NCBI RefSeq assembly: GCF_021278965.1
Contig: NZ_CP065589.1
Coordinates: 3,167,001-3,231,000, forward strand
Reading direction: 5' to 3'
Length of the DNA: 64,000 nt
Origin: Chryseobacterium capnotolerans
GTDB lineage: Bacteria > Bacteroidota > Bacteroidia > Flavobacteriales > Weeksellaceae
The notes under the pieces were generated by a model. It was not told where the DNA came from, ran no database searches, and saw nothing but the letters and a program-made list of their open reading frames with translations. Positions 6,041-28,510 of the stretch are shown here, in pieces. Every line of letters begins with the position of its first letter. Position 1 is the stretch's first letter. The position numbers were made by a program, and so were the translations under genes.

Positions 6041-8437
6041 ATGAAAAGGGGTTTACAATTATTTTTTTTCCTGATATGCTTTTTGGGGTATTCACAGCTT
6101 AAAATTAAAGTTGTAGATGCCGCCAGTCAAAAACCCGTATCAAAAGCTAAGATTTTCTGTGACAGTACCATTCTTGGCTATACCAACACACAGGGAATTC
6201 TGGAATTTAAAGCGGAATGCAAAAACATAGAAGTTGAAGCAGAATCATACCAAAAGGAAATAGCCACTGTAGAAAGCAGTATGGAAGTTTTCCTGACCAA
6301 AAAAACTTCAAAAACCACCAATATTGAAACGGTAGTGATTGAAGATAAAAGTGATCCCAGGGCTTTGGAAATTCTGAAAAAGGTAAATAAGCTCTTCAAT
6401 GAAAACTCTCCTAAAAGCTTAAGTTCTTACACTTATAAGTCTTACGAAAAAATTTCCCTTGATATTGACCAGGACAGTCTGACTCAATTCAATCAGTATT
6501 TTAATGATTTGAACTTCTTCAAGAAAAAGAGGGAAAAGGACTCCCTGAATAACATCAGTGCAAGAAAAATTTTTGCGAAGAGCAAACTCTTCCTTTGGGA
6601 AAGAGCCCAGGAGTTTTTATATTCCAAAAAATACGGTGAAAAGATCAATATCCTTGATAACAGAATTTCGGGTCTAAAACAGCCAGTCTATGAAATGATT
6701 GCGCTTCAGCAAAGTAACAGAGATATTGTTCCCGAGCAGGTAAAACCAGAAAACAGAGGGCTTTACAGATATTTTCTTTCTGATACCATAGAACTTGACG
6801 GAAGGAAAAACTTTGTCATCCGTTTTCGTGAGGTGAACTATAAAAATCCGGATAAAAAAAGAAAGTACACAGGAGCCATCTATATTGACACTGAGACTTA
6901 CGGGATCAAAAAAATTGAAAACTTCAGTAAAAACAAGAACGACGGTATCATCACCAGTACCTGGATTTTTTACAACAATAAATGGTTCCTTGCCCATGAA
7001 ACGACCAAGCTTAAAATGGGAAAAATGGCTATGGACGACAAGGAACATACCGACAAAAAAGATAAAAAAAGCTTTGGTACTTACGCGTTTCTTACCTCAA
7101 AATATTTTGACTTTGCTTCTCCGATTGAAGAAAAACCCCAGGATTTCAAAGGGTATACTTTCTCTGTAAAAAGCATTGACGGGCATTCTCTGAATCAATA
7201 CAGAACTGAACCGCTTACAGAAAGGGAACAGAATACTTACAAAACCATTGACAGTCTTGGTAAGAAATATAAAATTGACAGCAAAGCACAAATCATTTCA
7301 GGATTGCTTAACGGGCAAATCAGAGTAGGTATCGTGGATTTTGCTGTGGATGAAATCGCCAATTATAACTCATACGAAGGATTTCGATTGGGATTAAAGG
7401 CTAAAATCAATGAAAATTTCAATCCTTATTTCTCTCCGGATTATTATTTTGCTTATGGTGTAAAAGACCGAAGATGGAAATACGGGATGGGAATCGATAT
7501 CAAAACAACGTTGGAAAAGAATTCCTTTTTCAGGTTTGATTTTTATGATGATGTGACTGCTTCCGGGGAATTCTACAGAAGACTCTGGAATTTCAAAATG
7601 CGGATGATGAACTTTGGAAATAACCTGAACAATGATAAGTATTTCCACTTCAAAGGTGCCTCATTATCTTATCTGAATGATGTTACAAATGGCCTTACCT
7701 TAGCCTTTGCTGTAAGAAGAAATATTGAGGAAGCCCAGTTTGATTATCAGTTCAGAGATGGCGGGTCTTCTTTCAAGAACTTCAATACATTGTTTACATT
7801 AAAGTATTCACCGAATTCTACTAATATTATGACACCTCAGGGAAAATCTCTGATCGATCAAAAATATCCTGAATTGTATTTCAACTATGAGCAGAGCTAT
7901 AAAATGGCGGGTGGAAGTTTCAATTATTCCCGTTTTGATGCCCTTTTTGTTCATAATTTTAAAACCCCAATCGGAACAACAGGTTTCAGATTATACGGTG
8001 GACTGGTTTTAGGAGAAGCTCCCATCTGGAAGAACTTTACGATGAACGGACTAGCCTCTCCGGGCAAGGATTTTAATTTTAACCTTACTTCGTTTCTTGG
8101 GTTTGCTACTTTGGAAGGTGGGAAATATTATAACGATAAATTTGTTGCTTATTATTTCACCCATAAACTTCCTTGGTACTTCAAAAGTTTTGGACATAAT
8201 GTTTCCAGCTTTGATTTTGTACTGCGTGGAACGATTGGTGATATGAAACATCCGGAATACCATCAGTTCAAGTTTAAAAAACTGGATCACCTGTATCAGG
8301 AGGTAGGATTGGAATGGAATAACTTCCTTTCCAGCTATTTCAATCTGGGGTTATTTTATAGAGTGGGATATTATGCTACGCCACACTTTAAACAGAATTT
8401 TGCTATTCAGTTTAAATTGAAATTCCTTGAATTTTAA
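6041..8437 (+). CDS. DUF5686 outer-membrane protein with a carboxypeptidase-regulatory-like domain
   Basis: A 798-residue outer-membrane protein. Residues 1-18 are a signal peptide (FFLICFLGYSQ). Residues 19-85 are a carboxypeptidase-regulatory-like beta sandwich (KIKVVDAASQKPVSKAKI). The remainder is a long region ending in many amphipathic strands and a terminal aromatic (KLKFLEF), as expected for a beta-barrel. DUF5686 proteins are common in Flavobacteriia and their function is unknown. The gene stands alone, with a gap of about 220 bases upstream, and is followed 27 bases later by a small ORF. Confidence 0.85.
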   Translation: MKRGLQLFFFLICFLGYSQLKIKVVDAASQKPVSKAKIFCDSTILGYTNTQGILEFKAECKNIEVEAESYQKEIATVESSMEVFLTKKTSKTTNIETVVIEDKSDPRALEILKKVNKLFNENSPKSLSSYTYKSYEKISLDIDQDSLTQFNQYFNDLNFFKKKREKDSLNNISARKIFAKSKLFLWERAQEFLYSKKYGEKINILDNRISGLKQPVYEMIALQQSNRDIVPEQVKPENRGLYRYFLSDTIELDGRKNFVIRFREVNYKNPDKKRKYTGAIYIDTETYGIKKIENFSKNKNDGIITSTWIFYNNKWFLAHETTKLKMGKMAMDDKEHTDKKDKKSFGTYAFLTSKYFDFASPIEEKPQDFKGYTFSVKSIDGHSLNQYRTEPLTEREQNTYKTIDSLGKKYKIDSKAQIISGLLNGQIRVGIVDFAVDEIANYNSYEGFRLGLKAKINENFNPYFSPDYYFAYGVKDRRWKYGMGIDIKTTLEKNSFFRFDFYDDVTASGEFYRRLWNFKMRMMNFGNNLNNDKYFHFKGASLSYLNDVTNGLTLAFAVRRNIEEAQFDYQFRDGGSSFKNFNTLFTLKYSPNSTNIMTPQGKSLIDQKYPELYFNYEQSYKMAGGSFNYSRFDALFVHNFKTPIGTTGFRLYGGLVLGEAPIWKNFTMNGLASPGKDFNFNLTSFLGFATLEGGKYYNDKFVAYYFTHKLPWYFKSFGHNVSSFDFVLRGTIGDMKHPEYHQFKFKKLDHLYQEVGLEWNNFLSSYFNLGLFYRVGYYATPHFKQNFAIQFKLKFLEF

Positions 8438-8464
8438 TCAAGAATAAATTATACATACAATAAT

Positions 8465-8701
8465 ATGCAAAGAATAGAGATCAAAGCGGAAGGCTTTTTT
8501 GAGTTATTAAAATTAAAAGATACTTCCATGTGGGCTATTTTCTCACAGATGATTGATGGGAATGAAAAAGAAATCATATTTTTAGATCATGAAGGTAAAA
8601 TCCTTTTCAACTATATTTTACCAGCTGATGCAGAGAAACTGGAAGAAGACAGAAAAGAGTTCTCCAAACAGTTTACTGATAAGCTTGGCAGTTTAAATTA
8701 A
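8465..8701 (+). CDS. Small conserved-looking hypothetical protein
   Basis: 78 residues, no signal peptide and no membrane segment. It is rich in acidic and basic residues, with an alternating strand pattern (EIIFLDHEGKILFNYIL) and a C-terminal charged helix. It lies 27 bases after the DUF5686 gene and 6 bases before the M28 peptidase gene, so co-transcription with the peptidase is likely. No family is recognised. Its tight fit between two real genes and normal codon use support it being a gene. Confidence 0.65.
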   Translation: MQRIEIKAEGFFELLKLKDTSMWAIFSQMIDGNEKEIIFLDHEGKILFNYILPADAEKLEEDRKEFSKQFTDKLGSLN

Positions 8702-8707
8702 AAGCCA

Positions 8708-10177
8708 ATGAATAAGAATTATATTTTTTCTTTACTGGGTCTTTTTTTATTCAGTATCGGAAGTGCTCAAAGCTATAAAAAACCTCTGGTATCAGCTATT
8801 AAAGAAACTGATCTCAGAAAAGACATGTATGAATTGGCAGCAGATCAGTTCTGGGGCCGTGAAGCAGGAACTTTAGATGAATTAAAGGTATCCATGTGGC
8901 TGGCAGATAAAGCCAAAGAGACAGGAATGAAACCTGCTGGTGACCATGGGACTTTTTTCCAGTTTTTTGATATGTACAGGCATCAGACCACTCCACAGAG
9001 CAGTCTGAAAATTGGAGATACTCCATTGAAACTATGGAAAGACTACCTTGTTGCAGAACCTGTAAATGCTTCTGTTGATGCAGAAATTGTATATGCCGGA
9101 AATACTGAACCTGAAGATCTTGCCAAACTGAATCTTAAAGGAAAAGTACTGGCTGTAAATGCTTCTGACAAAAACATTGATAAGGAAATGACTCTTTTTG
9201 TAAGAAGATATCCCGGATTTGTAAGAACAAAATATTATAATAAAGCAAATGAACTGGGAGCAAAAGCGATCATTTTCATCACGGATGATATTTCTGAAAA
9301 AAGCTGGGTAGAAGTTCTTCCTCAAATGACAAGAGGAACCTATGGTGTAGAAGGGCTTAGAGAAAAAATCACCAACAATATTCCTGTTCTTTGGATCAAA
9401 AGAGAAAATGCTGCCTGGGTAAAAAACAATCCTAAAGTTGCTCTTAACCTGATGACGGAAACGTACAAATATCCTTCAGTAAACATCATCGGGAAAATTG
9501 AAGGAACAGACCCTGTCCTTAAAAAAGAATATGTTCTGTTGAGCGGACACCAGGACCATGACGGAATCAGACATCCTGTAAAAAACGACACGATTTACAA
9601 TGGTGCTGACGACAATGCAAGTACCTGTGTTGCGATGCTGGCCATGGCGAGAGCTTATAAAAAGCAACCGGGAAAAAGAAGTATTCTGTTTGTTTTCCAT
9701 GGAGCTGAAGAAAGAGGATTATTAGGTTCAAGATGGCATGCTGCCCATCCTGTAGTTCCGAAAGAGAATATTGTAGCGGTACTGAATGGTGACATGATCG
9801 GAAGAAATGATAATAATGAAGCCGCTTTATTAGGTGGAAATGCGCCGCATAAAAACTCTGAAGAGCTTGTAAAAATGGCCGAAGATGCTAATAACGAAAG
9901 TACAAAATTCAAGTATTTAAAAGATTGGGATTCTCCGAATCATGCTGAATATTTTTATTTCAGAAGCGATCACCTTCCGTATGCTAAAGTAGGTATTCCT
10001 TCCATATTTTTCACCAGTGTGCTGCATGATCAGTATCACACTCCACAAGATGAATCTGAAAACATCAACTACAAGAAGCTGTATAAAATGACAGAATGGA
10101 TGTACAGAACATCCTGGAAAGTAGCCAACGAGGTTGAACGTCCGAAAGTCATTTCAAATTTTACGCTTGAAAGATAA
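8708..10177 (+). CDS. Secreted M28-family zinc aminopeptidase
   Basis: A 489-residue exported metallopeptidase that probably removes N-terminal amino acids from peptides outside the cytoplasmic membrane. Residues 1-20 are a signal peptide (SLLGLFLFSIGSAQ). Residues of about 110-240 look like a PA-type insert. The M28 zinc ligands are visible in order: LSGHQDHDG, YNGADDNAS, HGAEERG, LNGDMIGR and DQYHTPQDE. The set of His, Asp, Glu, Asp and His is complete, so the enzyme should be active. It ends at its own terminator, convergent with the ilv operon. Confidence 0.9.
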   Translation: MNKNYIFSLLGLFLFSIGSAQSYKKPLVSAIKETDLRKDMYELAADQFWGREAGTLDELKVSMWLADKAKETGMKPAGDHGTFFQFFDMYRHQTTPQSSLKIGDTPLKLWKDYLVAEPVNASVDAEIVYAGNTEPEDLAKLNLKGKVLAVNASDKNIDKEMTLFVRRYPGFVRTKYYNKANELGAKAIIFITDDISEKSWVEVLPQMTRGTYGVEGLREKITNNIPVLWIKRENAAWVKNNPKVALNLMTETYKYPSVNIIGKIEGTDPVLKKEYVLLSGHQDHDGIRHPVKNDTIYNGADDNASTCVAMLAMARAYKKQPGKRSILFVFHGAEERGLLGSRWHAAHPVVPKENIVAVLNGDMIGRNDNNEAALLGGNAPHKNSEELVKMAEDANNESTKFKYLKDWDSPNHAEYFYFRSDHLPYAKVGIPSIFFTSVLHDQYHTPQDESENINYKKLYKMTEWMYRTSWKVANEVERPKVISNFTLER

Positions 10178-10182
10178 ATAAT

Positions 10183-10217
10183 CAACTCCGGCTCACGAAT
10201 GTGAGCCGGAGTTTTCT
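10183..10217 (+). terminator. Terminator after the M28 peptidase
   Basis: Perfect 13-base arms AACTCCGGCTCAC and GTGAGCCGGAGTT around a GAAT loop, followed by TTCTT. It may also end the ilv operon from the other side, but the T run favours the plus strand. Confidence 0.8.
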
Positions 10218-10227
10218 TGTTATAATA

Positions 10228-10265
10228 CCACTAATACACGAATGATTTTATTTGTGTATTAGTGG
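10228..10265 (+). repeat. Intergenic palindrome, AATACAC family
   Basis: Twelve-base perfect inverted arms CCACTAATACAC and GTGTATTAGTGG around AT-rich sequence. Its core at 10233-10251 matches 60667-60685 at 18 of 19 bases, so it belongs to a dispersed family. It sits between the convergent M28 and ilvA genes. Confidence 0.7.
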
Positions 10266-10303
10266 ATAATAAACATATACTGGATTCCAACGCTATAAAA
10301 CTG

Positions 10304-11570
10304 CTAGATCAGCAGGTTCATTAAAGACGGATCATTGTTGAGATAATTTACAAAAAAATCCTGTCTTTTCATGTTGTCCATTAAAGGGGTAAAATCTTCT
10401 TTCTGTTTCAGCGCTATTCCTACTACCGCAATTCCTTTTTCTTTTGAATTTTTCTGAGTGTATTCAAAAAAAGTAATATCGTCATTAGGCCCAAGCACAT
10501 CCATTACAAAAGCTTTCAATGCTCCCGGACGTTGTGGGAATCTTACCAGAAAATAATGTTTCAAGTTGGCATACAGCAGAGCTTTTTCTTTGATTTCTTC
10601 CATCCTGGTAATGTCATTATTGCTTCCACTGATAACACAAACTACATTCTTTCCTTCTAATTGGTCTTTATATTTTTCCAACGCTGCTACAGAAAGAGCA
10701 CCCGCAGGTTCTACCACAATAGCATCTTTATTATATAAGGAAAGAATGGTTTCACATACAAGCCCCTCCTCTACCGTGACTACATCGTACAAAGTATTTT
10801 TACAAAGTTCAAAAGTGAGCTCTCCTACCTGTTGTACGGCTGCACCATCTACAAAACGACTGATTTTTTCGAGATGGACAGGTTGACCGTGTTCCAAAGC
10901 CTTTTTCATACTTGCAGCGGCAGAAGGTTCTACTCTCAATGATTTTAGTTTGAGGAGACAATTCTTTAAAAACAGAACAAACACCTGCAGCCAAACCTCC
11001 CCCTCCAATCGGAACAAAGAGATAATCAATAGATTCTTCCGACTGCTCAAGAATTTCCAATGCAGTTGTCGCCTGCCCTGCAATGATTGCAGGATCATCA
11101 AAAGGATGAATGAATGTTCCGTTATTTTCATTACAAAACCTCATCGCAGCCTCTTTTGCTTCATCAAAAGTGTCTCCATGCAAAACAATATCAATATAGT
11201 CTCCACCAAACATCCTAACCTGTTCCAGTTTTTGTCCCGGTGTGGGTAAAGGCATGAAAATAGTTCCTTTCACCTTCATTGTATGGCATGCAAAAGCAAC
11301 TCCCTGGGCATGATTACCGGCACTGGCACAAACAATACCTCTGGAAATATCTTCTCTTGGCATGGTAGACATTTTGTTATAAGCCCCACGAATTTTATAC
11401 GATCTTACTCTTTGAAGATCTTCTCTTTTAAAATGTACTTGAGCATTATAAATTCCTGATAAATTATTGTTAACAGCCAATGGCGTTCTGACACACACAT
11501 TTTTAAGTCTTTCTGCTGCCTTGTAAACAGTATCCAATACGGATAAATAGGTTTCTCCCGTCCTCATCAT
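10304..11570 (-). CDS. ilvA: Threonine ammonia-lyase (frameshifted)
   Basis: Cytoplasmic PLP enzyme converting threonine to 2-oxobutanoate, the first step to isoleucine. The N-terminal part holds the PLP lysine in SYKIRGAYN (Lys59) and the glycine loop PIGGGGLAAG. The C-terminal part holds SGSNNDI and an ACT-like regulatory domain (FPQRPGALKAF). The frame changes near 10931-10940: the family motif IIGVEPSAAASM is recovered if one base is removed from the TCTCT stretch. The corrected protein is 421 residues, normal for the Bacteroidota short form. It is the last gene of the ilv operon, 9 bases after ilvC. This break is not in a homopolymer, unlike the others in the window. Confidence 0.9.
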
Positions 11571-11579
11571 TGTTTTTTA

Positions 11580-12626
11580 TTAATTATTCTCCGGTCTCAG
11601 GCTTCGTACAGTTTTTCCTGCTTGCCACATTTCGCTTTCTCTTAGCTCTGTTAACTCTACTTCTAATTTTTCTCTGTAATCAGGTTTGCTATTACTGTCG
11701 ATGGATCTTTGAGCTTCATTTCCTGCGGCAACATTATCATATAATTCCTCAAATAAAGGAGAAGTGGCATCTCTGAAACGCTTCCACCAGTCTAAAGCTC
11801 CTCTTTGAGCTGTTGTACTGCAGTTTGCATACATCCAGTCCATTCCGTTTTCTGCTACTAAAGGCATCAGTGATTGAGTTAATTCTTCCACCGTTTCATT
11901 GAATGCTTCTGACGGACTATGCCCATTCTTTCTCAATACATCATATTGTGCAGCAAATATTCCCTGTACGGCTCCCATCAAGGTTCCTCTTTCTCCGGCA
12001 AGATCGCTGTAAACTTCTTTTCTAAAATCTGTTTCAAATAAATACCCGCTTCCTATGGCAATTCCCAGAGCTGTTACTCTTTCCCTTGCTTTTCCTGTGG
12101 CATCCTGATAAACGGCAAAGCTGCTGTTTAATCCTCTGTCCTGAAGGAACATTCTTCTCAATGAAGTTCCTGATCCTTTTGGAGCTACCAAAAACACATC
12201 TACATCAGCCGGAGGAACAATTCCTGTACGTTCATTAAAAGTAATTCCGAAACCATGAGAGAAATACAATGCTTTTCCGGGAGTAAGATGTTGCTTAACC
12301 TTCGGCCAGTATTCAATCTGTGCAGCATCACTCAGTAAATAACAGATGATGGTTCCTTTTTCTAAAGCTTCTTCAATTTCAAACAAAGTTTCGCCCGGTA
12401 CAAAACCGTCTGCTACAGCCTTATCCCAGGATTTAGAATTCTTTCTCTGCCCTACGATTACATTAACTCCATTGTCTTTTTGATTAAGTGCCTGCCCTGG
12501 TCCCTGTACTCCATAACCAATTACGGCTACTACTTCATCTTTTAATACTTCCTGAGCTTTATTTAGTGGAAACTCTTCTCTTGTTACTACATTTTCTTCT
12601 ACTCCTCCGAAATTTAATTTTGCCAT
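11580..12626 (-). CDS. ilvC: Ketol-acid reductoisomerase
   Basis: Isomerises and reduces acetolactate or acetohydroxybutyrate with NADPH and Mg, the second common step to Val and Ile. It has 348 residues. The Rossmann motif is GYGVQGPGQA (residues 38-47), followed by a GQRKNSKSW cofactor loop. The catalytic knotted domain has SDLAGERGTLMG and CSTTAQRGALDWW. The divergent nucleotide loop is typical of Bacteroidota enzymes. It follows ilvN after a 232-base gap filled by a repeat element and overlaps no neighbour. Confidence 0.95.
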   Translation of the reverse strand: MAKLNFGGVEENVVTREEFPLNKAQEVLKDEVVAVIGYGVQGPGQALNQKDNGVNVIVGQRKNSKSWDKAVADGFVPGETLFEIEEALEKGTIICYLLSDAAQIEYWPKVKQHLTPGKALYFSHGFGITFNERTGIVPPADVDVFLVAPKGSGTSLRRMFLQDRGLNSSFAVYQDATGKARERVTALGIAIGSGYLFETDFRKEVYSDLAGERGTLMGAVQGIFAAQYDVLRKNGHSPSEAFNETVEELTQSLMPLVAENGMDWMYANCSTTAQRGALDWWKRFRDATSPLFEELYDNVAAGNEAQRSIDSNSKPDYREKLEVELTELRESEMWQAGKTVRSLRPENN

Positions 12627-12687
12627 TTTCTATAATTTTATTTTGTTGTTTATTTTAATTTTGTTGACTATATACAATTTTACTCTA

Positions 12688-12810
12688 CTGTCATTGGCTA
12701 CGCCGAATCTTCGATTTCTGACAAAGGAAGAATCTCATAATATGATTTAGATTCTTCATTTCACTTCTGAACTACGTTCGCAAACCTTCAGTTTGTATTC
12801 AGAATGACAG
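12688..12810 (-). repeat. REP/MITE-like element inside the ilv operon
   Basis: About 123 bases with inverted ends CTGTCATT and AATGACAG. Inside are nested hairpins: GAATCT...AGATTC around 12730-12755 and CAAACcttcaGTTTG at 12781-12795. No ORF is present. It occupies most of the 232-base gap between ilvN and ilvC, the only long gap among the last five operon genes. Strand is arbitrary. Confidence 0.65.
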
Positions 12811-12858
12811 ACTCATAATAATAAGGCAACCGCATTGTATATAATTACCTTGTTATGT

Positions 12859-13140
12859 TTAGCTAGCGTATTCTATTGCTGTGAGGTATGGATTTTTATG
12901 ATAATGAACCTCCAATACATCTATTTGTTTTTCCATTTGTCTGGTGATCTTCTGAACAGATTCTTCTGTTTCTCTGATGGTAATCACATACTTTTTTACA
13001 TTCTCAGTTTCAGACGGTCCCATATTAAAATGGGTGATAGAAATCCTCCGTCTTGAAAAAATAGCATTGATTCTGCTCATAAGCCCCAAACAATCTTCTG
13101 TATAGGCTGTTATGGTGTATTCTTTATTTTCTGTTCTCAT
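12859..13140 (-). CDS. ilvN: Acetolactate synthase small (regulatory) subunit
   Basis: ACT-domain subunit that activates the large subunit and gives it feedback control by valine. It has 93 residues and consists of the ACT domain only (EYTITAYTEDCLGLMSRINAIF, then an RISITHFNMGPSE strand). This matches the length of the E. coli IlvN/IlvM type and lacks the C-terminal half of the roughly 160-residue IlvH type. The gene starts 14 bases after ilvB. The short form could be natural. The repeat element at 12688-12810 lies downstream and does not obviously cut the gene. Confidence 0.85.
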   Translation of the reverse strand: MRTENKEYTITAYTEDCLGLMSRINAIFSRRRISITHFNMGPSETENVKKYVITIRETEESVQKITRQMEKQIDVLEVHYHKNPYLTAIEYAS

Positions 13141-13154
13141 TTCTGTTGATTTTA

Positions 13155-14876
13155 TTATTTATGATTCAATACAATCTCTGAAACACTTTTTCCCTGAGGA
13201 ATCATGGGAAATACATTGTGTTTTTTGCCTGTCATCACCTCCAGCAAAAAGGCTCCTTTATGACTAAGCATTTCTTCCAATCCTTCTTTCAAGTCTTCTC
13301 TCTGAGCAACTTTTCTTCCCGGAATATGATAACCGTTTGCCACCTGAACAAAATCCGGACTCTGGATGTCTACGGAAGAATACCGTTCTTCATGAAAAAG
13401 TTCCTGCCACTGTCTTACCATTCCCAGATAGCTATTGTTCAGAATTAGAATTTTAACCTCAGGATGATACTGCATGATTGTTCCTAATTCCTGAATATTC
13501 ATTTGGGCTCCTCCATCTCCCATTACTGCGATAACAGGAAGATTTCGTTCTCCGTAAACCGCTCCTATTGCCGCAGGAAGACAGAATCCCATTGTTCCCA
13601 ATCCACCACTGGTAATATTGGTCCGGGAATGTTGGAAGTTGGAATACCTGCAAGTGATCATCTGATGCTGACCTACATCCGTTACAATTACCGCTTCTCC
13701 TTTGGTTATTTCATTAAGACATCTGATCACCTCTCCCATCGTCATTTCTTCTTCATTGGGATACAGCTCTTCATTAATAAGATTGATACTTTCCACTTCC
13801 AGACAGTCTTTAAATCTTTGATGCCATTCCGAATGCTCTCTTTTTTGAATTAGTGCTGTAAGAATCGGTAAAGTGTCTTTACAGTTTCCAAGAACCGGAA
13901 CGTCTGCTTTTACATTTTTATTAATCTCTGACCAATCAATGTCAAAATGAATAATCTTAGCCTGTTTAGCATATTGATCCAATCTTCCGGTTACACGGTC
14001 ATCAAAGCGCATTCCCACGGCAATCAGTACATCACATTGATTGGTAAGAATATTAGGTCCGTAATTTCCATGCATTCCTACCATTCCTACTGCCTGTAGA
14101 TGATCTGTAGGCAAAACACCCATCCCCAAAGCAGTCCATGCTACCGGAACTCCTGCTTTTTCTGCAAATTCTAAAAACTCACGTTCTGCTTTTCCAAGCA
14201 TAATCCCCTGTCCCGCAATGATGAAAGGACGTTCTGCTTTATTAATAAGTTCTGCTGCCTGTTCAATATGTTCCAGCGACGGTGCAGGATCTGGCTTATA
14301 ACTTCTCAAAGAATGGCAGGGAGAATATCCCTTGTATTCAACTTTCTGCAACTGGGCATTTTTCGTCACATCAATAAGTACCGGTCCTGGGCGTCCCGAT
14401 TTCGCGATATAAAATGCTTTAGCTAATACTTCAGAAAGTTCATTGGCATCTGTTACCTGATAATTCCATTTGGTAACAGGGCTGGTGACATTCATAACAT
14501 CTATTTCCTGGAAGGCATCTGTTCCTAAAAGATGTTCAAATACCTGTCCTGTAATACATACCAGCGGAGTATTATCTAATAAAGCATCTGCAAGACCTGT
14601 CACTAAATTGGTTGCTCCCGGACCGCTCGTTGCCATAACCACTCCTACTTTCCCGGAAACTCTGGCCAATCCCTGTGCTGCATGTACTGCCGCCTGCTCA
14701 TGGCGAACCAGAATATGTTCCAACTGATCTTTGTAATCATAAAGGGCATCATAAATAGGAATGATAGCACCACCGGGATAACCGAAAACCGTTTTCACGT
14801 CCTCCTGAAGAAAGGCTTCAAGAATAATCCGGCTTCCGCTCAGTTCTGTAGCTATTGATTGATTTAAATTCTTCAT
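13155..14876 (-). CDS. ilvB: Acetolactate synthase large (catalytic) subunit
   Basis: ThDP- and FAD-dependent enzyme that condenses pyruvate with pyruvate or 2-oxobutanoate, the committed step to Val and Ile. It has 573 residues. Visible are the catalytic glutamate region (LVRHEQAAVHAAQG), the central FAD-binding domain (GMVGMHGNYGPN), and the ThDP/Mg motif starting GDGGAQMN at residue 453 and ending LNNSYLGMVRQWQ. It lies 11 bases after ilvD and 14 before ilvN. Confidence 0.95.
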   Translation of the reverse strand: MKNLNQSIATELSGSRIILEAFLQEDVKTVFGYPGGAIIPIYDALYDYKDQLEHILVRHEQAAVHAAQGLARVSGKVGVVMATSGPGATNLVTGLADALLDNTPLVCITGQVFEHLLGTDAFQEIDVMNVTSPVTKWNYQVTDANELSEVLAKAFYIAKSGRPGPVLIDVTKNAQLQKVEYKGYSPCHSLRSYKPDPAPSLEHIEQAAELINKAERPFIIAGQGIMLGKAEREFLEFAEKAGVPVAWTALGMGVLPTDHLQAVGMVGMHGNYGPNILTNQCDVLIAVGMRFDDRVTGRLDQYAKQAKIIHFDIDWSEINKNVKADVPVLGNCKDTLPILTALIQKREHSEWHQRFKDCLEVESINLINEELYPNEEEMTMGEVIRCLNEITKGEAVIVTDVGQHQMITCRYSNFQHSRTNITSGGLGTMGFCLPAAIGAVYGERNLPVIAVMGDGGAQMNIQELGTIMQYHPEVKILILNNSYLGMVRQWQELFHEERYSSVDIQSPDFVQVANGYHIPGRKVAQREDLKEGLEEMLSHKGAFLLEVMTGKKHNVFPMIPQGKSVSEIVLNHK

Positions 14877-14887
14877 ACTCTCTGATT

Positions 14888-16576
14888 TTAAATTTCATCC
14901 GTTACACAGCCTTCAGCGGCGGATGATACGGTTAATGCATATTTATAAAGCAATCCTTTTTTCACCTTTAAAGCAGGTTTTTGCCAGCCTTGCTTTCTTT
15001 TTTCAATCTCTTCTTCCGAAACTTTTAGCTGTATGGTATTATTTACCGCATCAATTTCAATCAGGTCATTATCTTCTACAAAAGCAATTAATCCACCTTC
15101 ATGAGCTTCAGGAGTGATATGTCCTACAACAAAACCGTGAGTTCCGCCACTGAACCTTCCATCTGTAATCAAGGCCACGCTGCTTCCCAATCCTGCACCA
15201 ATCAAAGCGCTTGTTGGCTTCAGCATTTCCGGCATTCCGGGAGCACCTTTTGGTCCTTCGTTACGAATTACAATCACATCTCCATGTTGTACGGTTCCGT
15301 CTTCAATCCCTTTAATGAGGTTCTTTTCACCATCAAATACACGGGCTTTTCCAACAAACCGTTCTCCTTCTTTTCCTGTTATCTTGGCAACACTTCCTTT
15401 TTCAGCAAGATTTCCGTATAGAATTCTCAAATGTCCGGTTGGTTTTATAGGATTTGATAGAGGTCTTATAATCTTCTGAGTGTTAAAGTCTAATCCGGCT
15501 ACATGTTCCAGATTTTCAGCTAATGTTTTTCCAGTAACAGTTAAACAGTCTCCGTGTAACAATCCTTTTTCCAATAGATATTTCATTACAGCAGGTATTC
15601 CTCCGTGCTCATACAAGTCCTGCATCAGATATTTTCCACTTGGTTTCAAGTCAGCTAAAACGGGCGTGCAGTCACTCATTGCCTGAAAATCATCCTGAGT
15701 AATAGAAACTCCCACACTTTTAGCCATTGCGATGAAGTGAAGAACTGCATTGGTACTGCCTCCTAAAACCACAATCAGACGGAGTGCATTTTCAAAAGCT
15801 TTACGGGTCATGATATCCGAAGGCTTGATATCTTTTTCAAGAAGGATCTTCAAATATTTTCCTGCTTCCAGGCATTCATCTTGTTTTTCTTTGCTTAAAG
15901 CTGGGTTAGAAGATGAATATGGAAGACTCATTCCCAATGCTTCTATGGCAGATGCCATTGTATTCGCAGTATACATCCCTCCACAGGCACCTGCACCGGG
16001 ACAGGAATTTTTAACCACTCCATCAAAATCCTCTTCTGAAATTTCTCCTGCGATCTTTTTTCCTAAGGCTTCAAAAGCAGAGACAATATTCAAAGTTTCA
16101 CCTTTATAACATCCTGGGGCAATGGTTCCGCCATATACCATCAATGAAGGTCTGTTCAGTCTTCCCATTGCGATGATTGTTCCGGGCATGTTCTTGTCAC
16201 AACCAGGCAAAGCAATCAATCCGTCGTAATACTGGGCACCACAAATAGCTTCAATACTGTCTGCAATTACATCACGGCTTACCAGTGAATAGCGCATCCC
16301 ATCAGTTCCGTTACTCATCCCATCGCTTACTCCAATCGTATTAAAGATTAGCCCTGCCAATCCATGATCCCATGTCCCTTTCTTGACGACTCTGGCCAGA
16401 TCGTTGAGGTGCATGTTACAGGTATTTCCATCGTACCCCATACTTGCAATCCCGATCTGTGCTTTGTACATATCTTCTTCTGTAAAGCCAATTCCGTATA
16501 ACATGGCTTTTGCCGCTGGCTGCTCACTGTTTTGTGTGAATGTTTTTGAATATTTATTTAACATATTTTCCTGCAT
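14888..16576 (-). CDS. ilvD: Dihydroxy-acid dehydratase
   Basis: Fe-S enzyme dehydrating the dihydroxy acids to 2-oxo acids in Val and Ile synthesis. It has 562 residues. The three cluster cysteines of the family are visible: Cys53 (NTCNMH), Cys126 (GCDKNMPG) and Cys198 ([10 protein letters not shown]). [15 protein letters not shown] near the C-terminus is the usual substrate-site motif. The ATG at 16564 (MLNKYSK) is an equally good start and agrees better with relatives. It follows ilvE after 167 bases. Confidence 0.95.
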
Positions 16577-16743
16577 TTGCTGATCTTCCAGTCTGTTTAA
16601 GTGATTCTTTTTTTCTTTAATTTTGGTTCAAAACTACAGCTTGTAATATTTTTTCAATGCTCAGTTTTTTTGAAACTACAATATCCAATTGTTTAAAAAC
16701 AGATTATAACTAATTAATAATCAATGTTTTGAATTTTTAAAAT

Positions 16744-17616
16744 TTACAATGACAGAACTCTCACTAATTTTGAATAAGCCTGTTGTACCTTTTCACTTGC
16801 AGTATCTTCCCATTGCTTTGTGAAAGGAACATCATCCAGGGAATCCAATGCAACGATTTCAGCGGCTGTACCACAGAAAAAAGCGGCATCTGCCCCTCTC
16901 ATTTCTTCGGGTTTGAAGAAGGTTTCTTTAACTGGAATATTCAGTTCATTGCATATTTCAAAAACAGTCTGTCTTGTGATACCTGGAAGGATGCTTCCTT
17001 TTGCCGGGGTGAATAATGTTCCGTCTTTTTCATAAAAGACATTCGCTCCTGAGCTTTCTGCAACATTTCCATTTTCATCCAGTACCAAGGCTTCATCATA
17101 CCCTTTATCTTTGGCATCCTGACAAGCTAAAATGGAGTTTACATAGTGTCCGCCTACTTTAGCTTCCACTTTGAAAGCTTTCGGGTTAGGGCGTTGGAAA
17201 GGAGAAGTCATGATTTTCATTTTATCTGCCAGATAACCGTTGCTCCATTCCCAAGCCAGGAGAGATAAGTAAGATTCTTTGCCTTTTGAAAGGGACATAT
17301 TGGGTGAACAGGTGACCAAAGGACGGATATAAGCATCTGTAAAGCCATTCAGTTCCAGCAGTTCATACGTAAGATCTGTAAGCTGATCTGCAGAATAATC
17401 GAAAGGAATGTGCATCAATTCTGCGGATCTTTTCAGCCTTTCATAATGTTCTTTTGCTTTAAAAATCTTTGTTCCATGGGCAGTGTTGTAAGATTTAATT
17501 CCTTCAAAAACTGAATATCCGTAATGAAGAGATTGTCCGTAAAGATTGGTTCCTGCGTCTTTGGCTTTCATGAAGTTTCCATCAAAATAGATGACCGTGT
17601 CGTCGTTGTAATACAT
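16744..17616 (-). CDS. ilvE: Branched-chain amino acid aminotransferase
   Basis: PLP enzyme (class IV fold) that makes Ile, Val and Leu from their 2-oxo acids with glutamate. It has 290 residues. The PLP lysine is Lys153 in AKVGGHYVNS, with the class IV signature EALVLDENGNVAESSGANVF downstream. It is the first structural gene of the ilv operon, 34 bases after the second attenuator terminator, so it is controlled by both upstream leaders. Confidence 0.95.
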   Translation of the reverse strand: MYYNDDTVIYFDGNFMKAKDAGTNLYGQSLHYGYSVFEGIKSYNTAHGTKIFKAKEHYERLKRSAELMHIPFDYSADQLTDLTYELLELNGFTDAYIRPLVTCSPNMSLSKGKESYLSLLAWEWSNGYLADKMKIMTSPFQRPNPKAFKVEAKVGGHYVNSILACQDAKDKGYDEALVLDENGNVAESSGANVFYEKDGTLFTPAKGSILPGITRQTVFEICNELNIPVKETFFKPEEMRGADAAFFCGTAAEIVALDSLDDVPFTKQWEDTASEKVQQAYSKLVRVLSL

Positions 17617-17649
17617 GTTATAGTGGGTTAAAATTTAAAAATCGGGAAT

Positions 17650-17681
17650 AAAAAAAGCCCTCTCACAGTGTGAGAGGGCTC
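17650..17681 (-). terminator. ilv attenuator 2, terminator hairpin
   Basis: Perfect 12-base arms AGCCCTCTCACA and TGTGAGAGGGCT (17656-17680) followed on the minus strand by six T. The 5' arm of the terminator (17668-17675) can instead pair over 8 bases with 17709-17716, which overlaps the stop codon of leader peptide 2. This is the antiterminator expected of translation-coupled attenuation. Confidence 0.85.
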
Positions 17682-17710
17682 AATATATGTACAGTCATAC
17701 ATCTTCCGTC

Positions 17711-17767
17711 TCACACACGTAAGGGAATAATAATGACGATAATAATTACTGCGAATAACTGATACAT
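17711..17767 (-). CDS. ilv leader peptide 2
   Basis: An 18-residue ORF, MYQLFAVIIIVIIIPLRV, with 11 of 18 residues Ile, Val or Leu and a run of eight Ile/Val interrupted by nothing else (VIIIVIII). It lies between attenuator 1 and attenuator 2. Its TGA stop is inside the antiterminator arm. A ribosome slowed at Ile/Val codons would leave the arm free and allow read-through into ilvE. No strong Shine-Dalgarno is seen, as usual in Bacteroidota. Function is inferred from sequence and position. Confidence 0.85.
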   Translation of the reverse strand: MYQLFAVIIIVIIIPLRV

Positions 17768-17791
17768 AATTGTACTCTAAAAAATTAAAAT

Positions 17792-17822
17792 AAAAAAAAG
17801 CCGCTTCAAAATGAAACGGCTT
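17792..17822 (-). terminator. ilv attenuator 1, terminator hairpin
   Basis: On the minus strand GCCGTTTC (17813-17820) pairs with GAAGCGGC (17800-17807), extended by AA/TT, then an eight-T run (17792-17799). The 5' arm is perfectly complementary to GAAACGGC at 17853-17860, which lies in the last codons of leader peptide 1, giving an alternative antiterminator. Confidence 0.85.
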
Positions 17823-17845
17823 ATATAATTTAAGAAAAATCTATT

Positions 17846-17929
17846 CTAAAATGCCGTTTCCTGACTGTTGTAAATGACAACAGCTGCAATAGAAATGACA
17901 ATAATATTTTTCTGATTCGTAAAATTCAT
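17846..17929 (-). CDS. ilv leader peptide 1
   Basis: A 27-residue ORF starting MNFTNQKN, with an Ile/Val-rich centre IIVISIAAVVIY and ending NSQETAF. It begins only 4 bases after a perfect TAnnTTTG box, so its mRNA is probably leaderless. The arm that pairs with terminator 1 lies in its last codons. It is the first of two successive leader peptides upstream of ilvE. Confidence 0.85.
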   Translation of the reverse strand: MNFTNQKNIIVISIAAVVIYNSQETAF

Positions 17930-17933
17930 ACTG

Positions 17934-17963
17934 CAAATGTATAAACTTTTTAAAAACCTACAA
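17934..17963 (-). promoter_or_regulatory. Promoter of the ilv operon
   Basis: On the minus strand, TTG (17961-17963), a 19-base spacer and TACATTTG (17934-17941) fit the Bacteroidota -33/-7 promoter. It sits just after the folP stop. Transcription would start at or next to the ATG of leader peptide 1. Confidence 0.75.
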
Positions 17964-17979
17964 GTTTTTTTATCACTTT

Positions 17980-18845
17980 TTATTTTTTCTGTAAAAATTG
18001 ATTGAGCGTTTCCTTTGCTTGAGCTACATCATGAACTCTCAAAATTTTAGCTCCCTGCTCCAGAACTTTCAGGTGTAATTTCTGCGTTTCTTCATTGATG
18101 TCAAGCGGAGATTTTCCAAGCGGTTTATAGATAAATGATTTTCTTGAAATCCCGATTAATAAGGGAAATTTTCCAAATCCAAGATATTCAACCTCATCAA
18201 TCATTTTCATCTGATCGTCAACCGTTTTTCCAAAGCCAAAACCGGGATCTAAAATGATGTCTTTTACTCCTTTTTGCAACAGCTCATTGGTCTTTTCAGA
18301 AAAGTATCTGTTGACCTCTAATGTTATATCTTCAAACTTAATTTTATCATGCATGGTCTTATAGGAAGGATTGACATGCATTAAAATGTAAGGAAGCTGA
18401 GTTTCTGCCGCTGTATCAAACATTTTTTCGTCATATTGTCCACCTGAAATATCATTAATCATATCTATCCCTTCATTGAATCCAAACTTTACAGTTTCAG
18501 CATAAAAAGTATCCAAAGAAATCAATGCTTCCGGAAACTCTTTTTGATGTTAGAAATCACATTTCCAATCCTTTCAATTTCCTCTTCACTGGTCAGAAAT
18601 TCAGCATTAGGACGGGTAGATTGTGGACCGATATCCAAAATTTCAGCACCTTCTTTTAATAGTTTTTCTGCATGCACTAATGCCAGTTTTTCATCATTAA
18701 ATTTCCCACCATCTGAGAATGAATCTGGCGTCAAATTCAGGATTCCCATGATCTTTGGAGTATCCAGTTGTACCAGTCTGCCATTACAGTTAATAGAATG
18801 GGTTTGAGAGTTTGAGGGATCGAGAGTTTGAGAGTTTGAAAGCAT
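17980..18845 (-). CDS. folP: Dihydropteroate synthase (frameshifted)
   Basis: Joins p-aminobenzoate to the pterin pyrophosphate in folate synthesis. The family motifs are present: MGILNLTPDSFSDGG, DIGPQSTRP, ISLDTFYAE, NDISGG, DPGFGFGK and GISRKSFI. The frame breaks at 18541-18545, where AAAAA should be AAAAAA on the minus strand (IKKEFPEALISLDTFY is then continuous). The corrected length is 288 residues. The first 17 residues (SNSQTLDPSNSQTH) are a translated CAAACTCTC-type repeat, not part of the family, so the true start may be a non-ATG codon downstream. It lies upstream of the ilv promoter on the same strand. Confidence 0.9.
18803..18845 (-). repeat. Degenerate CAAACTCTC tandem repeat at the folP start
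   Basis: About four imperfect copies of TCAAACTCTC on the minus strand. They are in frame and translate as SNSQT twice. Similar CTCTC-rich sequence continues in the gap at about 18965-19020. Confidence 0.6.
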
Positions 18846-19057
18846 AGGAATTTATAAATGATGAATGATAATTGATAAATGATTTTATCTCCTGCAAAAT
18901 TAGCGATTTGCACTTGGAATAGGAAGCTAATATCCAGAAATTAGATCTCTTTAATTACTTATTTTCACTCGATACTCTCACACTCTCTTACACTCCTACT
19001 CTACAACCCTCAAACATGATTCCCCTCAGACTCGTTTCATAAACAAAACCGAATTCG

Positions 19058-19065
19058 TATATTTG
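19058..19065 (+). promoter_or_regulatory. Candidate -7 box for the DUF1599 operon
   Basis: TATATTTG fits TAnnTTTG exactly, 17 bases before the ATG at 19083. No TTG lies at the ideal -33 distance. Confidence 0.45.
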
Positions 19066-19082
19066 GAAGATTAAGAAATTTT

Positions 19083-19649
19083 ATGTCAAAAACATCAGTA
19101 CAGTTCGAGAAAGTTATCAGTCAGTGTCGTGATCTTTTCAGTAAAAAATTACAGGATTATGGACCTGCGTGGAGGGTTTTGAGACCAAGTTCCATTACGG
19201 ATCAGATTTATATCAAAGTCAACAGAATCCGTACACTGCAAATGACTGATGTGAAAATGGTGGATGAGAGTGAAGAGGATGAATTTATCGCAATTGTCAA
19301 CTACTCTATCATTGGTCTTATTCAGCTTGAAAAAGGTCTTTCCAATGATTTTAATGAAAATAAGGAGGAAATTTTAAATCTGTATGACAAATATTCCCAA
19401 GAAGCTCAGGCTTTAATGGAGAGAAAAAACCATGATTATGGTGAGGCATGGAGAGATATGAGAATCTCTTCTATTACAGATCTTATTTATCAGAAAGTAT
19501 TAAGAACCAAACAGATTGAAGACAACCAGGGAAAAACCATCGTATCAGAAGGCCTTGATGCCAACTATTTCGATATGCTGAACTATGCTGTTTTCTGTCT
19601 GATTAAATTCTCAGAACAAAAAAACCAATTCGAACCCAAAACTATTTAA
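19083..19649 (+). CDS. DUF1599 domain protein
   Basis: 188 residues, cytoplasmic. It holds two similar halves with the pattern CRDLFSKKLQDYGPAWRVLRPSSITDQI and ALMERKNHDYGEAWRDMRISSITDLI (given here as the paired DYGxAWR and SITDxIY motifs), an internal duplication typical of DUF1599. The family is described as associated with nucleotide modification, but no reaction is known here. It ends one base before the next ORF and is the first gene of a run of six on the same strand. Confidence 0.85.
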   Translation: MSKTSVQFEKVISQCRDLFSKKLQDYGPAWRVLRPSSITDQIYIKVNRIRTLQMTDVKMVDESEEDEFIAIVNYSIIGLIQLEKGLSNDFNENKEEILNLYDKYSQEAQALMERKNHDYGEAWRDMRISSITDLIYQKVLRTKQIEDNQGKTIVSEGLDANYFDMLNYAVFCLIKFSEQKNQFEPKTI

Positions 19650-19650
19650 C

Positions 19651-20759
19651 ATGATCAAAGGTTTATTACGCTTTATTATCGCTGTCATTTTTATCCTTTC
19701 AGGCTTTGTAAAAGCTGTGGATCTGGTAGGATTCTCCTTTAAAATGGAGGAATATTTTTCACCTGCAGTCTTCAATATGCCGTTTTTTGAAAAATTTGCC
19801 CTACTGTTTTCAATTATCGTTGTCATACTGGAGCTTTTCCTTGGATTTATGCTGCTGCTGAAAATGAAGCTTAAATTTACCTTATCAGCTTTAATTGCAC
19901 TTTGTGTATTCTTTGGCTTCCTTACCTTCTATTCCGCTTATTTCAATGTGGTTACAGATTGTGGATGCTTCGGAGATGCCATTAAATTTACGCCTTGGCA
20001 GAGTTTCTTTAAAGATGTAGCTCTTCTTGTAGGATTGATTATTTTGTTTGTCCTGTACAAAAAGATTTCCGTAAAACGGATGAGTATGGCAGCAGTAAAA
20101 AAGAATCTACAGGAAAGTTCAAGTATATTCTTTTCGCTGTATTTTCTTTGGGAATGATCTACATTATGGCCCAGGGAATTATGCACGAACCAATGATTGA
20201 CTTCCGTGATTATAAAATAGGAACAGATATTAAAGGAGAAAAAGAAAAAATCAATAAAAACCCTTCAGAATATAAGACTTTTTATTCTCTGAAAAATCAA
20301 AAAACAGGTGAAGTCATAAAGGTGAATCAGGATGAGTATATCAAGGAAACAAAATACTGGGCAGAAGGCTCGCCTTGGAAAATTGAGGATGGTAAAAATG
20401 AATCTGTACTTGTAAAAGAAGGCTATAAATCTGAGATTGTAAAATTCAAGATTGAAGATCCTACAGGAATGGAACTTACCGATGAAATCATCAAAGCTCC
20501 AAAAGCAATTCTCGTATTTTCTTACCATCCGAAAGAAGTTTCATCTGATCTTCTTCAAAAGGTAGAAGCTAAGGTAAATGCTCAGAAAGGAGCACTTATT
20601 TATGGAGTTTCAACAGATCAGAAAACTTTTAAAACCATTAAAAATGCAATGATGGATGGTACCGCCATTAAAACCATTGCAAGAAGCAACCCGTTTGTAC
20701 TGGTTCTTCAGAACGGAAAAATTATTGACAAACAGCCTGCTAAAGATTACATTAAATAA
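19651..20759 (+). CDS. BT_3928-family DoxX-like membrane protein (frameshifted)
   Basis: The N-terminal half has four transmembrane segments (residues 1-145) of the DoxX type, with a DCGCFGD motif near residue 108. The C-terminal half is a soluble domain with a thioredoxin-like layout (KAILVFSYHPKEV, NPFVLVLQNGKI). The frame breaks at an A4 run at 20073-20076. One more A makes VKTDEYGSSKKESTGKFKY continuous and gives 369 residues. The family is common in Bacteroidota and of unknown function. A redox or quinone-linked role is a guess from the fold. Its stop lies 8 bases before the next gene. Confidence 0.85.
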
Positions 20760-28329: not shown

Positions 28330-28344
28330 GAAAGGGGAATGATT

Positions 28345-28394
28345 GAACCACCCCGTCAAATCTTCGATTTGACACCCCTTCGGAGGAGGGGAAT
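28345..28394 (+). repeat. GGTGGTT-flanked hairpin repeat, copy 1
   Basis: AACCACCCC, then the hairpin GTCAAATCTTCGATTTGAC, then ACCCCTTCGGAGGAGGGG. The same architecture occurs inverted at 63774-63823 with a different but still paired stem. Confidence 0.75.
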
Positions 28395-28480
28395 TATCAC
28401 GTCTTCAATTGTTATTTTCTTCGTAATAGTAATTCACTATGAAATATATAATAAAAATTCGTGCAGCGGTGGCTAAAACA

Positions 28481-28510
28481 AAAAACGCATCCCGATTGGG
28501 ATGCGTTTTT
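28481..28510 (-). terminator. Terminator after clpP
   Basis: Arms AAAAACGCATCCC and GGGATGCGTTTTT around GATT, 20 bases beyond the clpP stop. The symmetric A/T ends would also serve the plus strand. Confidence 0.85.

Follow-up and report, generated by a model that had tools for sequence, protein, structure and literature searches.

Two probable leader-peptide attenuators in series precede the ilvE operon of Chryseobacterium capnotolerans

Introduction

Descriptions of attenuation usually involve a single leader and a single decision. The ilvGMEDA and ilvBN operons of enterobacteria (Gammaproteobacteria) are controlled by leader-peptide attenuators, one unit per operon. The locus described here, upstream of ilvE in Chryseobacterium capnotolerans, resembles these systems in that Ile/Val control codons, a terminator, and an alternative antiterminator precede genes for branched-chain amino acid biosynthesis. 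It differs from them in that two units stand in series, the first of which is apparently leaderless. Two leader peptides for a single gene are reportedly also present at ermB, where, by the title of the study, erythromycin induces translational attenuation; the number of leader peptides is the same as here, but they do not belong to amino-acid sensing transcription attenuators.

The closest described tandem leader-peptide case is mgtCBR of Salmonella (PMC3641672). As at the present locus, its leader mRNA contains two short ORFs, both of which link translation to whether the coding region is transcribed, and the authors call this pair of attenuators with different signals a "singular example". 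The signals sensed there are ATP and proline, whereas both units described here would read the same amino acids. Furthermore, the mgtCBR leader does not have two intrinsic terminators, a point made by its authors in contrast with metE, whereas one is present per unit here. The closest functional parallel is found in Bacillota, in which tandem T-boxes, i.e. two and rarely three serial sensors of tRNA charging acting on the same pathway, precede trp, leu, and ilv genes (PMC12452182). T-boxes bind uncharged tRNA directly, whereas the sensor here would be the translating ribosome; the likeness is convergent and not homologous. Within the same order as Chryseobacterium, leader-peptide attenuation ahead of amino-acid operons has been proposed for candidates in Flavobacterium psychrophilum (PMC9723704); the excerpted main text of that paper does not mention tandem units, whereas two are present here. 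Attenuation of amino-acid operons was also treated by Lopatovskaya et al., as cited in PMC4833913, and that work may cover Bacteroidetes. A tandem terminator is described upstream of rimP in several Gammaproteobacteria (PMC2965389). Among the matches listed in searches of the open-licence literature, no description of tandem leader-peptide attenuators for the same amino acids was found.

Results

The ilv operon and its setting

The window, by which we mean the whole stretch of 64 kb that was analyzed, is contained in a 5.36-Mb single-contig genome, and the best matches to its IlvE are from Chryseobacterium species (98% in C. contaminans). The operon runs on the minus strand in the order ilvE-ilvD-ilvB-ilvN-ilvC-ilvA, with one promoter and two complete attenuator units ahead of it. 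Its genes are as follows.

16744..17616, minus strand: ilvE, branched-chain aminotransferase, which opens the operon (TIGR01122, above cutoff)
14888..16576, minus strand: ilvD, dihydroxy-acid dehydratase (TIGR00110, above cutoff)
13155..14876, minus strand: ilvB, acetolactate synthase large subunit (TIGR00118, above cutoff)
12859..13140, minus strand: ilvN, probable acetolactate synthase small subunit, 93 amino acids (named from its place in the operon)
11580..12626, minus strand: ilvC, ketol-acid reductoisomerase (TIGR00465, above cutoff)
10304..11570, minus strand: ilvA, threonine ammonia-lyase, split over two frames that overlap (10809-11570 and 10304-11131)

The regulated genes ilvE, ilvD, ilvB, ilvC, and ilvA (the last in two frames) make the amino acids that would be sensed. 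Each of the two ilvA frames matched one half of the threonine ammonia-lyase profile; the split is a frameshift and possibly a sequencing error. The same kind of split, into frames 18522-18845 and 17980-18525, is seen in the gene upstream of the attenuators (17980-18845, minus strand), which from its sequence resembles dihydropteroate synthase (folP). This second split gene again suggests indel errors in the assembly.

Elsewhere in the same genome, single attenuators with one terminator each were found before hisG (His-rich leader MKPIFLALHHYYHHLC) and trpE (Trp-rich leader MSNNIWWWLSNSSSGLKVLSCC). As far as three operons tell, attenuator doubling is no general habit in this genome. A second chorismate-binding match at 5089805-5090449 contains two internal stops and is apparently a pseudogene or an error.

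Anatomy of the two units

The elements between the promoter and ilvE are listed in the order of transcription.

17934..17963, minus strand: single promoter of the Bacteroidota type (TTG at 17963-17961, 19-base spacer, TACATTTG at 17941-17934)
17846..17929, minus strand: leader peptide 1, MNFTNQKNIIVISIAAVVIYNSQETAF, an Ile/Val-rich ORF starting 4 nt past the -7 box
17853..17860, minus strand: putative antiterminator segment 1, GAAACGGC, within the final codons of leader 1
17798..17822, minus strand: intrinsic terminator 1, an 11-pair stem followed by a U-run, present in relatives
17711..17767, minus strand: leader peptide 2, MYQLFAVIIIVIIIPLRV, an Ile/Val-rich ORF of 18 amino acids
17709..17716, minus strand: putative antiterminator segment 2, GTGTGAGA, across the stop codon of leader 2
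17682..17703, minus strand: small predicted hairpin downstream of leader 2 and ahead of terminator 2, in the conserved stretch TATGACTGTACATAT
17655..17681, minus strand: intrinsic terminator 2, a 12-pair stem followed by a U-run

A preliminary description of this DNA had claimed a promoter, two leaders, two terminators, and complementary arms, and all of these elements were found on the minus strand at the bases listed above. Over 8 bases the 5' arm of terminator 1 (17820-17813, GCCGTTTC) is fully complementary to 17860-17853 (GAAACGGC), as is the 5' arm of terminator 2 (17675-17668, TCTCACAC) to 17716-17709 (GTGTGAGA). Both units thus comprise, by sequence, an ORF rich in codons for the relevant amino acids, an intrinsic terminator, and a mutually exclusive antiterminator that uses the 5' arm. 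In a fold of the window sequence leader 1 was able to fold within its own codons, a candidate for the pause (1:2) hairpin that keeps ribosome and polymerase in step. The folding z-scores of the four stretches tried ranged from -3.6 to -5.8. The small hairpin at 17682-17703, seen in the folds of many but not all relatives, perhaps has a role in pausing or insulation. No family was matched by leader 1 in an NCBIfam search. A sigma-70 promoter scan is uninformative for this phylum.

Several controls addressed chance. A terminator scan of positions 8000-20000 returned 11 sites, compared with 8.2 expected from shuffles. Minus-strand sites with more than 6 pairs in this region were terminators 1 and 2 and, in addition, only 10213-10184, which has 13 pairs but a tail of GATTATTTAT. 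A unit detector, which required a short ORF rich in Ile/Val codons together with a strong terminator, was run over the 64 kb and returned the two units on the minus strand and one unconvincing plus-strand match (28339-28509). Applied to both strands of 10 dinucleotide-shuffled versions of the window, and to 2000 shuffled versions of the 500-nt stretch upstream, it returned no unit. The two units are not a chance product.

Conservation within Chryseobacterium

We searched for ilvE in 148 Chryseobacterium genomes, an even draw from a larger group, and by our own count found an operon-type gene in 104. The remaining 44 contained only a distant match (about 25-28% among the matches listed), which may mean that the synthesis of branched-chain amino acids has often been lost in Chryseobacterium. 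Upstream DNA was taken from 103 of the 104 genomes (G123, split over contigs, was omitted) and provided 104 ilvE places, since G080 has two ilvE genes. Two attenuators were present at 74 places and one at 28, and two places were too near a contig end to tell. The preliminary description had named a lack of conservation of leader codons and arm complementarity in relatives as a refutation. The sequences passed this test: 74 of the 104 places have both units, and leader ends prefer their own terminator arms (see below).

Places of the two kinds differed in their ilvE. At the single-attenuator places it was 67-75% identical to that of the window (G013, in two pieces, 65 and 78%), and at the tandem places it was at least 80% identical except in G029 (74%), G105 (two pieces, 74 and 81%), and G139/G080b (55%). 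Locus L020 scored one unit at the strict terminator threshold and two at a looser one, at which the identical G099 also had two, and was taken as two. G111 and G147 were counted as single using a longer reach, extra sequence being present between attenuator and ilvE. Such extra sequence, roughly 400-500 nt, separates the attenuator from ilvE in four single-attenuator loci (L223, L225, L226, and L227, from G119, G111, G138, and G147, respectively), and a small ORF is visible in it in G111 and G147.

We aligned 82 distinct upstream sequences, all of the tandem type; many are from close relatives, so that the following figures are not independent samples. A promoter-like pattern was present in 76 of the 82. 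Mean identity was 0.96 for TTG and 0.98 for the -7 box TACATTTG, with 0.80 for the spacer. In leader 1 it was, at the nucleotide level, 0.97 for codons 1-8, 0.94 for codons 9-14, and 0.83-0.84 for codons 15-23, and the VIIIVIII codons of leader 2 reached 0.98. Antiterminator segments 1 and 2 had values of 0.93 and 0.90. For terminator 1 the 5' arm gave 0.93 and the 3' arm 0.82, and both arms of terminator 2 gave 0.97-0.98. The lowest values belonged to the stretch from terminator 1 to leader 2 (0.68) and to the loops (0.63-0.65), while neighboring stretches ranged higher (terminator 2 to ilvE, 0.81; stop codon 1 to terminator 1, 0.88). The contrast between the putative functional blocks and some of their neighbors is modest. 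The leader 2 ORF is 54, 57, 60, or 63 nt long at the different places. Such whole-codon length changes were rejected as evidence for translation, because the ORF finder returns only multiples of three.

Probable serial action and probable leaderless start

The promoter pattern TAnnTTTG was absent from the stretch between the terminator 1 hairpin, inclusive, and leader 2 at all 74 tandem places, and likewise at all 80 alignment rows (of 82) in which terminator 1 was found. The units would therefore act in series, as had been claimed in the preliminary description.

Leader 1 starts 4 nt past the -7 box at 66 of the 74 tandem places and 4 nt past a weaker box at four more. Exceptions are G029 (10 nt), G139/G080b (20 nt), and G008, for which the script took a longer ORF. 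All 28 single-attenuator places have 17-21 nt from promoter box to leader, which leaves no room for another unit between the two. Promoters of this class have a usual start-site spacing, and from this spacing together with the 4-nt distance we infer that leader 1 is probably leaderless or nearly so. This claim of the preliminary description is thus supported, the 4-nt spacing of the tandem places standing against the 17-21 nt of the singles. Leaderless mRNAs are uncommon in the phylum. In Flavobacterium psychrophilum they make up 5.5% of 890 CDSs with a mapped start (PMC9723704), and in Bacteroides thetaiotaomicron about 3.7% of 5' UTRs are shorter than 10 nt (PMC7366714).

Pairing of leader ends with terminator arms

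The calculated duplex between leader end and terminator arm had a mean energy of -13.0 kcal/mol for 74 distinct first units and -13.7 kcal/mol for 68 distinct second units. With shuffled leader ends (60 each) the means were -6.0 and -6.6 kcal/mol, respectively. Wrong ORFs picked by the detector in G028, G091, G086, and G108 were corrected by hand, and L140, L141, L143, L145, and L147 were left out. Measured from the end of the stop codon, the pairing segment started 16 nt upstream in 61 of 74 first units, and in 68 of 68 second units it ended 6 nt downstream. Given the usual ribosome footprint, a ribosome finishing the leader would cover a segment so placed, and one stalled on most of the Ile/Val codons would not.

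Because the arms differ between lineages, partners could be swapped. Among 40 hand-picked representatives the mean for own pairs was -13.73 compared with -8.64 for swapped pairs, and none of 20,000 permutations was as good. Leader ends thus prefer their own terminator arm, which bears out the complementarity proposed earlier. The own arm ranked first among all 40 partners in 12 of the 40 cases and third or better in 21. Pairing across units was calculated for 75 tandem loci: leader 1 with arm 2 gave -7.5 and leader 2 with arm 1 gave -8.6, compared with -12.7 and -13.7 for the own pairs. In the window itself the end of leader 2 paired with the terminator 1 arm at -12.9. Since leader 2 can pair in this way, the two units may not be fully insulated from each other. 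Outside the genus, the antiterminators of unit 2 in L074 and L079 were no better than shuffles, and those of the first units of L064, L070, L073, and L117 were marginal.

Control codons and tRNA-Val

The Val codon GTC accounted for 33 of 70 Val codons in 37 hand-picked representative leaders, compared with 20 of 276 in ten genes of the window (p = 1e-13). GTG was raised too (22 of 70 compared with 37 of 276). When leaders were compared with their own ilvE at 16 loci, GTC was again enriched (17 of 42 compared with 12 of 237; p = 6e-9). Among Ile codons ATA was lower in leaders (8 of 249 compared with 30 of 281; p = 0.001). The codon for V11 of leader 2 was GTC in 82 of 82 aligned sequences.

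In a tRNA search of the genome 150 of 445 first-look candidates were scored and 98 places were listed, all of which were covered. ARAGORN identified 86 tRNAs in them, an approximate number after removal of repeats with identical surroundings; tRNA-Val(UAC) occurred four times, and no tRNA-Val(GAC) was found among the about 86 tRNAs from the 98 places. GTC would then be read by wobble only, and this suggests that the leaders use a poorly decoded codon for sensitivity to Val shortage. Published modeling of attenuation covers how ribosome and polymerase race each other and what part isoacceptors play (PMC1183508). The possibility that leaders 1 and 2 sense different amino acids was rejected, both being Ile/Val leaders. 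The suggestion in the preliminary description that the units sense different tRNA mixes likewise found no support, as Ile and Val codons make up both.

Two- and three-unit loci beyond the genus

Outside the family, 32 distinct ilvE loci, which are not a random sample, were curated by hand; L024, L053, L058, L059, and 21 exact upstream duplicates were left out of the count. Detector doubles at L056, L135, and L136 were recounted as one, a neighboring gene's end and hairpin preceding a single attenuator in each, and L143, L145, and L147 are doubtful single calls. At least two units were present in 11 of the 32 loci. Eight had two (L064, L069, L074, L075, L077, L079, L116, and L117) and three had three (L065 from Aequorivita, L070, and L073, the last two being close relatives). 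Units 2 and 3 of these three loci are 92-94% identical over 116-117 nt and by sequence are a plain tandem duplication. An IlvE tree of 43 rows, where L063 was labeled as one by eye and L020 as one although it has two, requires four changes, gains or losses, between single and multiple units; no fewer than three of them are forced by well-supported branches. In 35 regions in which ilvE was not found ahead of ilvD there were about 14 single attenuators and no double ones.

G139 and G080 contain an identical foreign IlvE that was placed among Flavobacteriaceae sequences (support 100/95). Ahead of the foreign ilvE (L241 of G080, L240 of G139) stands a tandem of its own with other leaders, MYNSIIISSIIIAGVISHTGEE (or a close variant of it) and MKSYNNTIIISIIISSPP, which suggests that attenuators travel with the operon. 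G080 carries the usual operon with the usual tandem as well, and G139 carries only the foreign one.

Discussion

The locus very probably contains two ribosome-mediated (leader-peptide) transcription attenuators in series on one ilvEDBNCA transcript, a reading that is based on sequence comparison. RNA polymerase would start at the single promoter, and a ribosome would enter leader 1 at or nearly at the 5' end of the transcript. With charged Ile- and Val-tRNA plentiful, the ribosome would reach the end of leader 1 and cover GAAACGGC, whereupon terminator 1 would fold and transcription would end near 17791. With the ribosome stalled on an Ile/Val codon, GAAACGGC would be free to pair with the 5' arm of terminator 1 and the polymerase would pass. 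The choice would be repeated at leader 2 and terminator 2, so that only transcripts clearing both would reach ilvE. The expected gain would be a lower basal expression, as two read-through fractions multiply, together with a steeper response to starvation. The sequences themselves show the anatomy, its conservation, the preference of leader ends for their own arms, and the lack of an internal promoter box; stalling, conditional termination, and multiplication are inferred by analogy with known attenuators. Our confidence in the structure is high and that in the purpose is moderate.

It is unlikely that only one of the attenuators regulates while the other is a remnant or a fixed partial terminator. 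That 28 of the 104 places manage with a single attenuator would agree with such a division of roles, as would the weaker terminator 1 of some species (L020) and its more variable 3' arm (0.82). However, control codons and complementary segments are conserved in both units over the 82 sequences, and the otherwise rare GTC is abundant in both leaders. A separate promoter for leader 2, which would place the attenuators in parallel on different transcripts, is very unlikely. From terminator 1 up to leader 2 no TAnnTTTG occurs at any of the 74 places or in any of the 80 rows, which speaks against such a promoter; moreover, its -33 box would fall inside terminator 1, and the stretch from terminator 1 to leader 2 is the least conserved measured outside the loops (0.68). 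What could be taken as such a promoter are weak near-matches (TAnnTTT[AT]) 11-15 nt before leader 2 at 44 of 74 places, in AT-rich sequence and counted without a chance comparison, and a TAnnTTTG 58 nt before leader 2 in the foreign operon of G139/G080b, which lies ahead of the terminator 1 hairpin.

The leaders might instead be hydrophobic small membrane proteins, the hairpins being ordinary terminators of two tiny genes. Ile/Val-rich peptides do resemble a short membrane segment, and codons 1-8 of leader 1 are strongly conserved (0.97). This interpretation is nevertheless highly improbable, given that the peptides differ between lineages save for their Ile/Val content, that codon choice is constrained (GTC in all 82 sequences at V11 of leader 2), and that the leader-end segment complements the next terminator arm in lineages with differing arms. 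Finally, we give next to no probability to a pair of T-boxes or metabolite riboswitches in place of ribosome-sensed leaders. Tandem T-boxes are known before ilv genes of Bacillota (PMC12452182), but no Rfam family reached its gathering score in 8000-19000 and no T-box match appeared at E up to 1; the sole overlapping Rfam match, an L20 leader, was far below threshold (24.7 bits compared with a gathering score of 58.7; E = 0.26).

Returning to two leader-peptide attenuators in series, two switches in many Chryseobacterium and three in some relatives look like a recurrent tightening of control by repetition. At trp, where 10-15% of transcription leaks through the attenuator, a repressor acts as well (PMC1183508); adding an attenuator would offer a different means of reducing such leakage. 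There is about an even chance that leader-peptide attenuators in series have evolved repeatedly as a regulatory architecture in the ilv operons of Bacteroidota, with units gained by tandem duplication or by a leaderless unit at the promoter, and movable with the operon by horizontal transfer. The array would then act as a multiplicative gate by which both basal level and sensitivity are set, a ribosome-sensed counterpart to the tandem T-boxes in Bacillota. A further testable prediction, that leaders use poorly decoded codons, comes from linking their control codons to the apparent lack of tRNA-Val(GAC). In one clade, and apparently in further lineages, a decision on the same amino acids is repeated two or three times, which makes it a directly testable question what is gained in basal level, steepness, or noise from repeating a noisy, kinetic decision. 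Natural versions with one, two, and three units are available for comparison.
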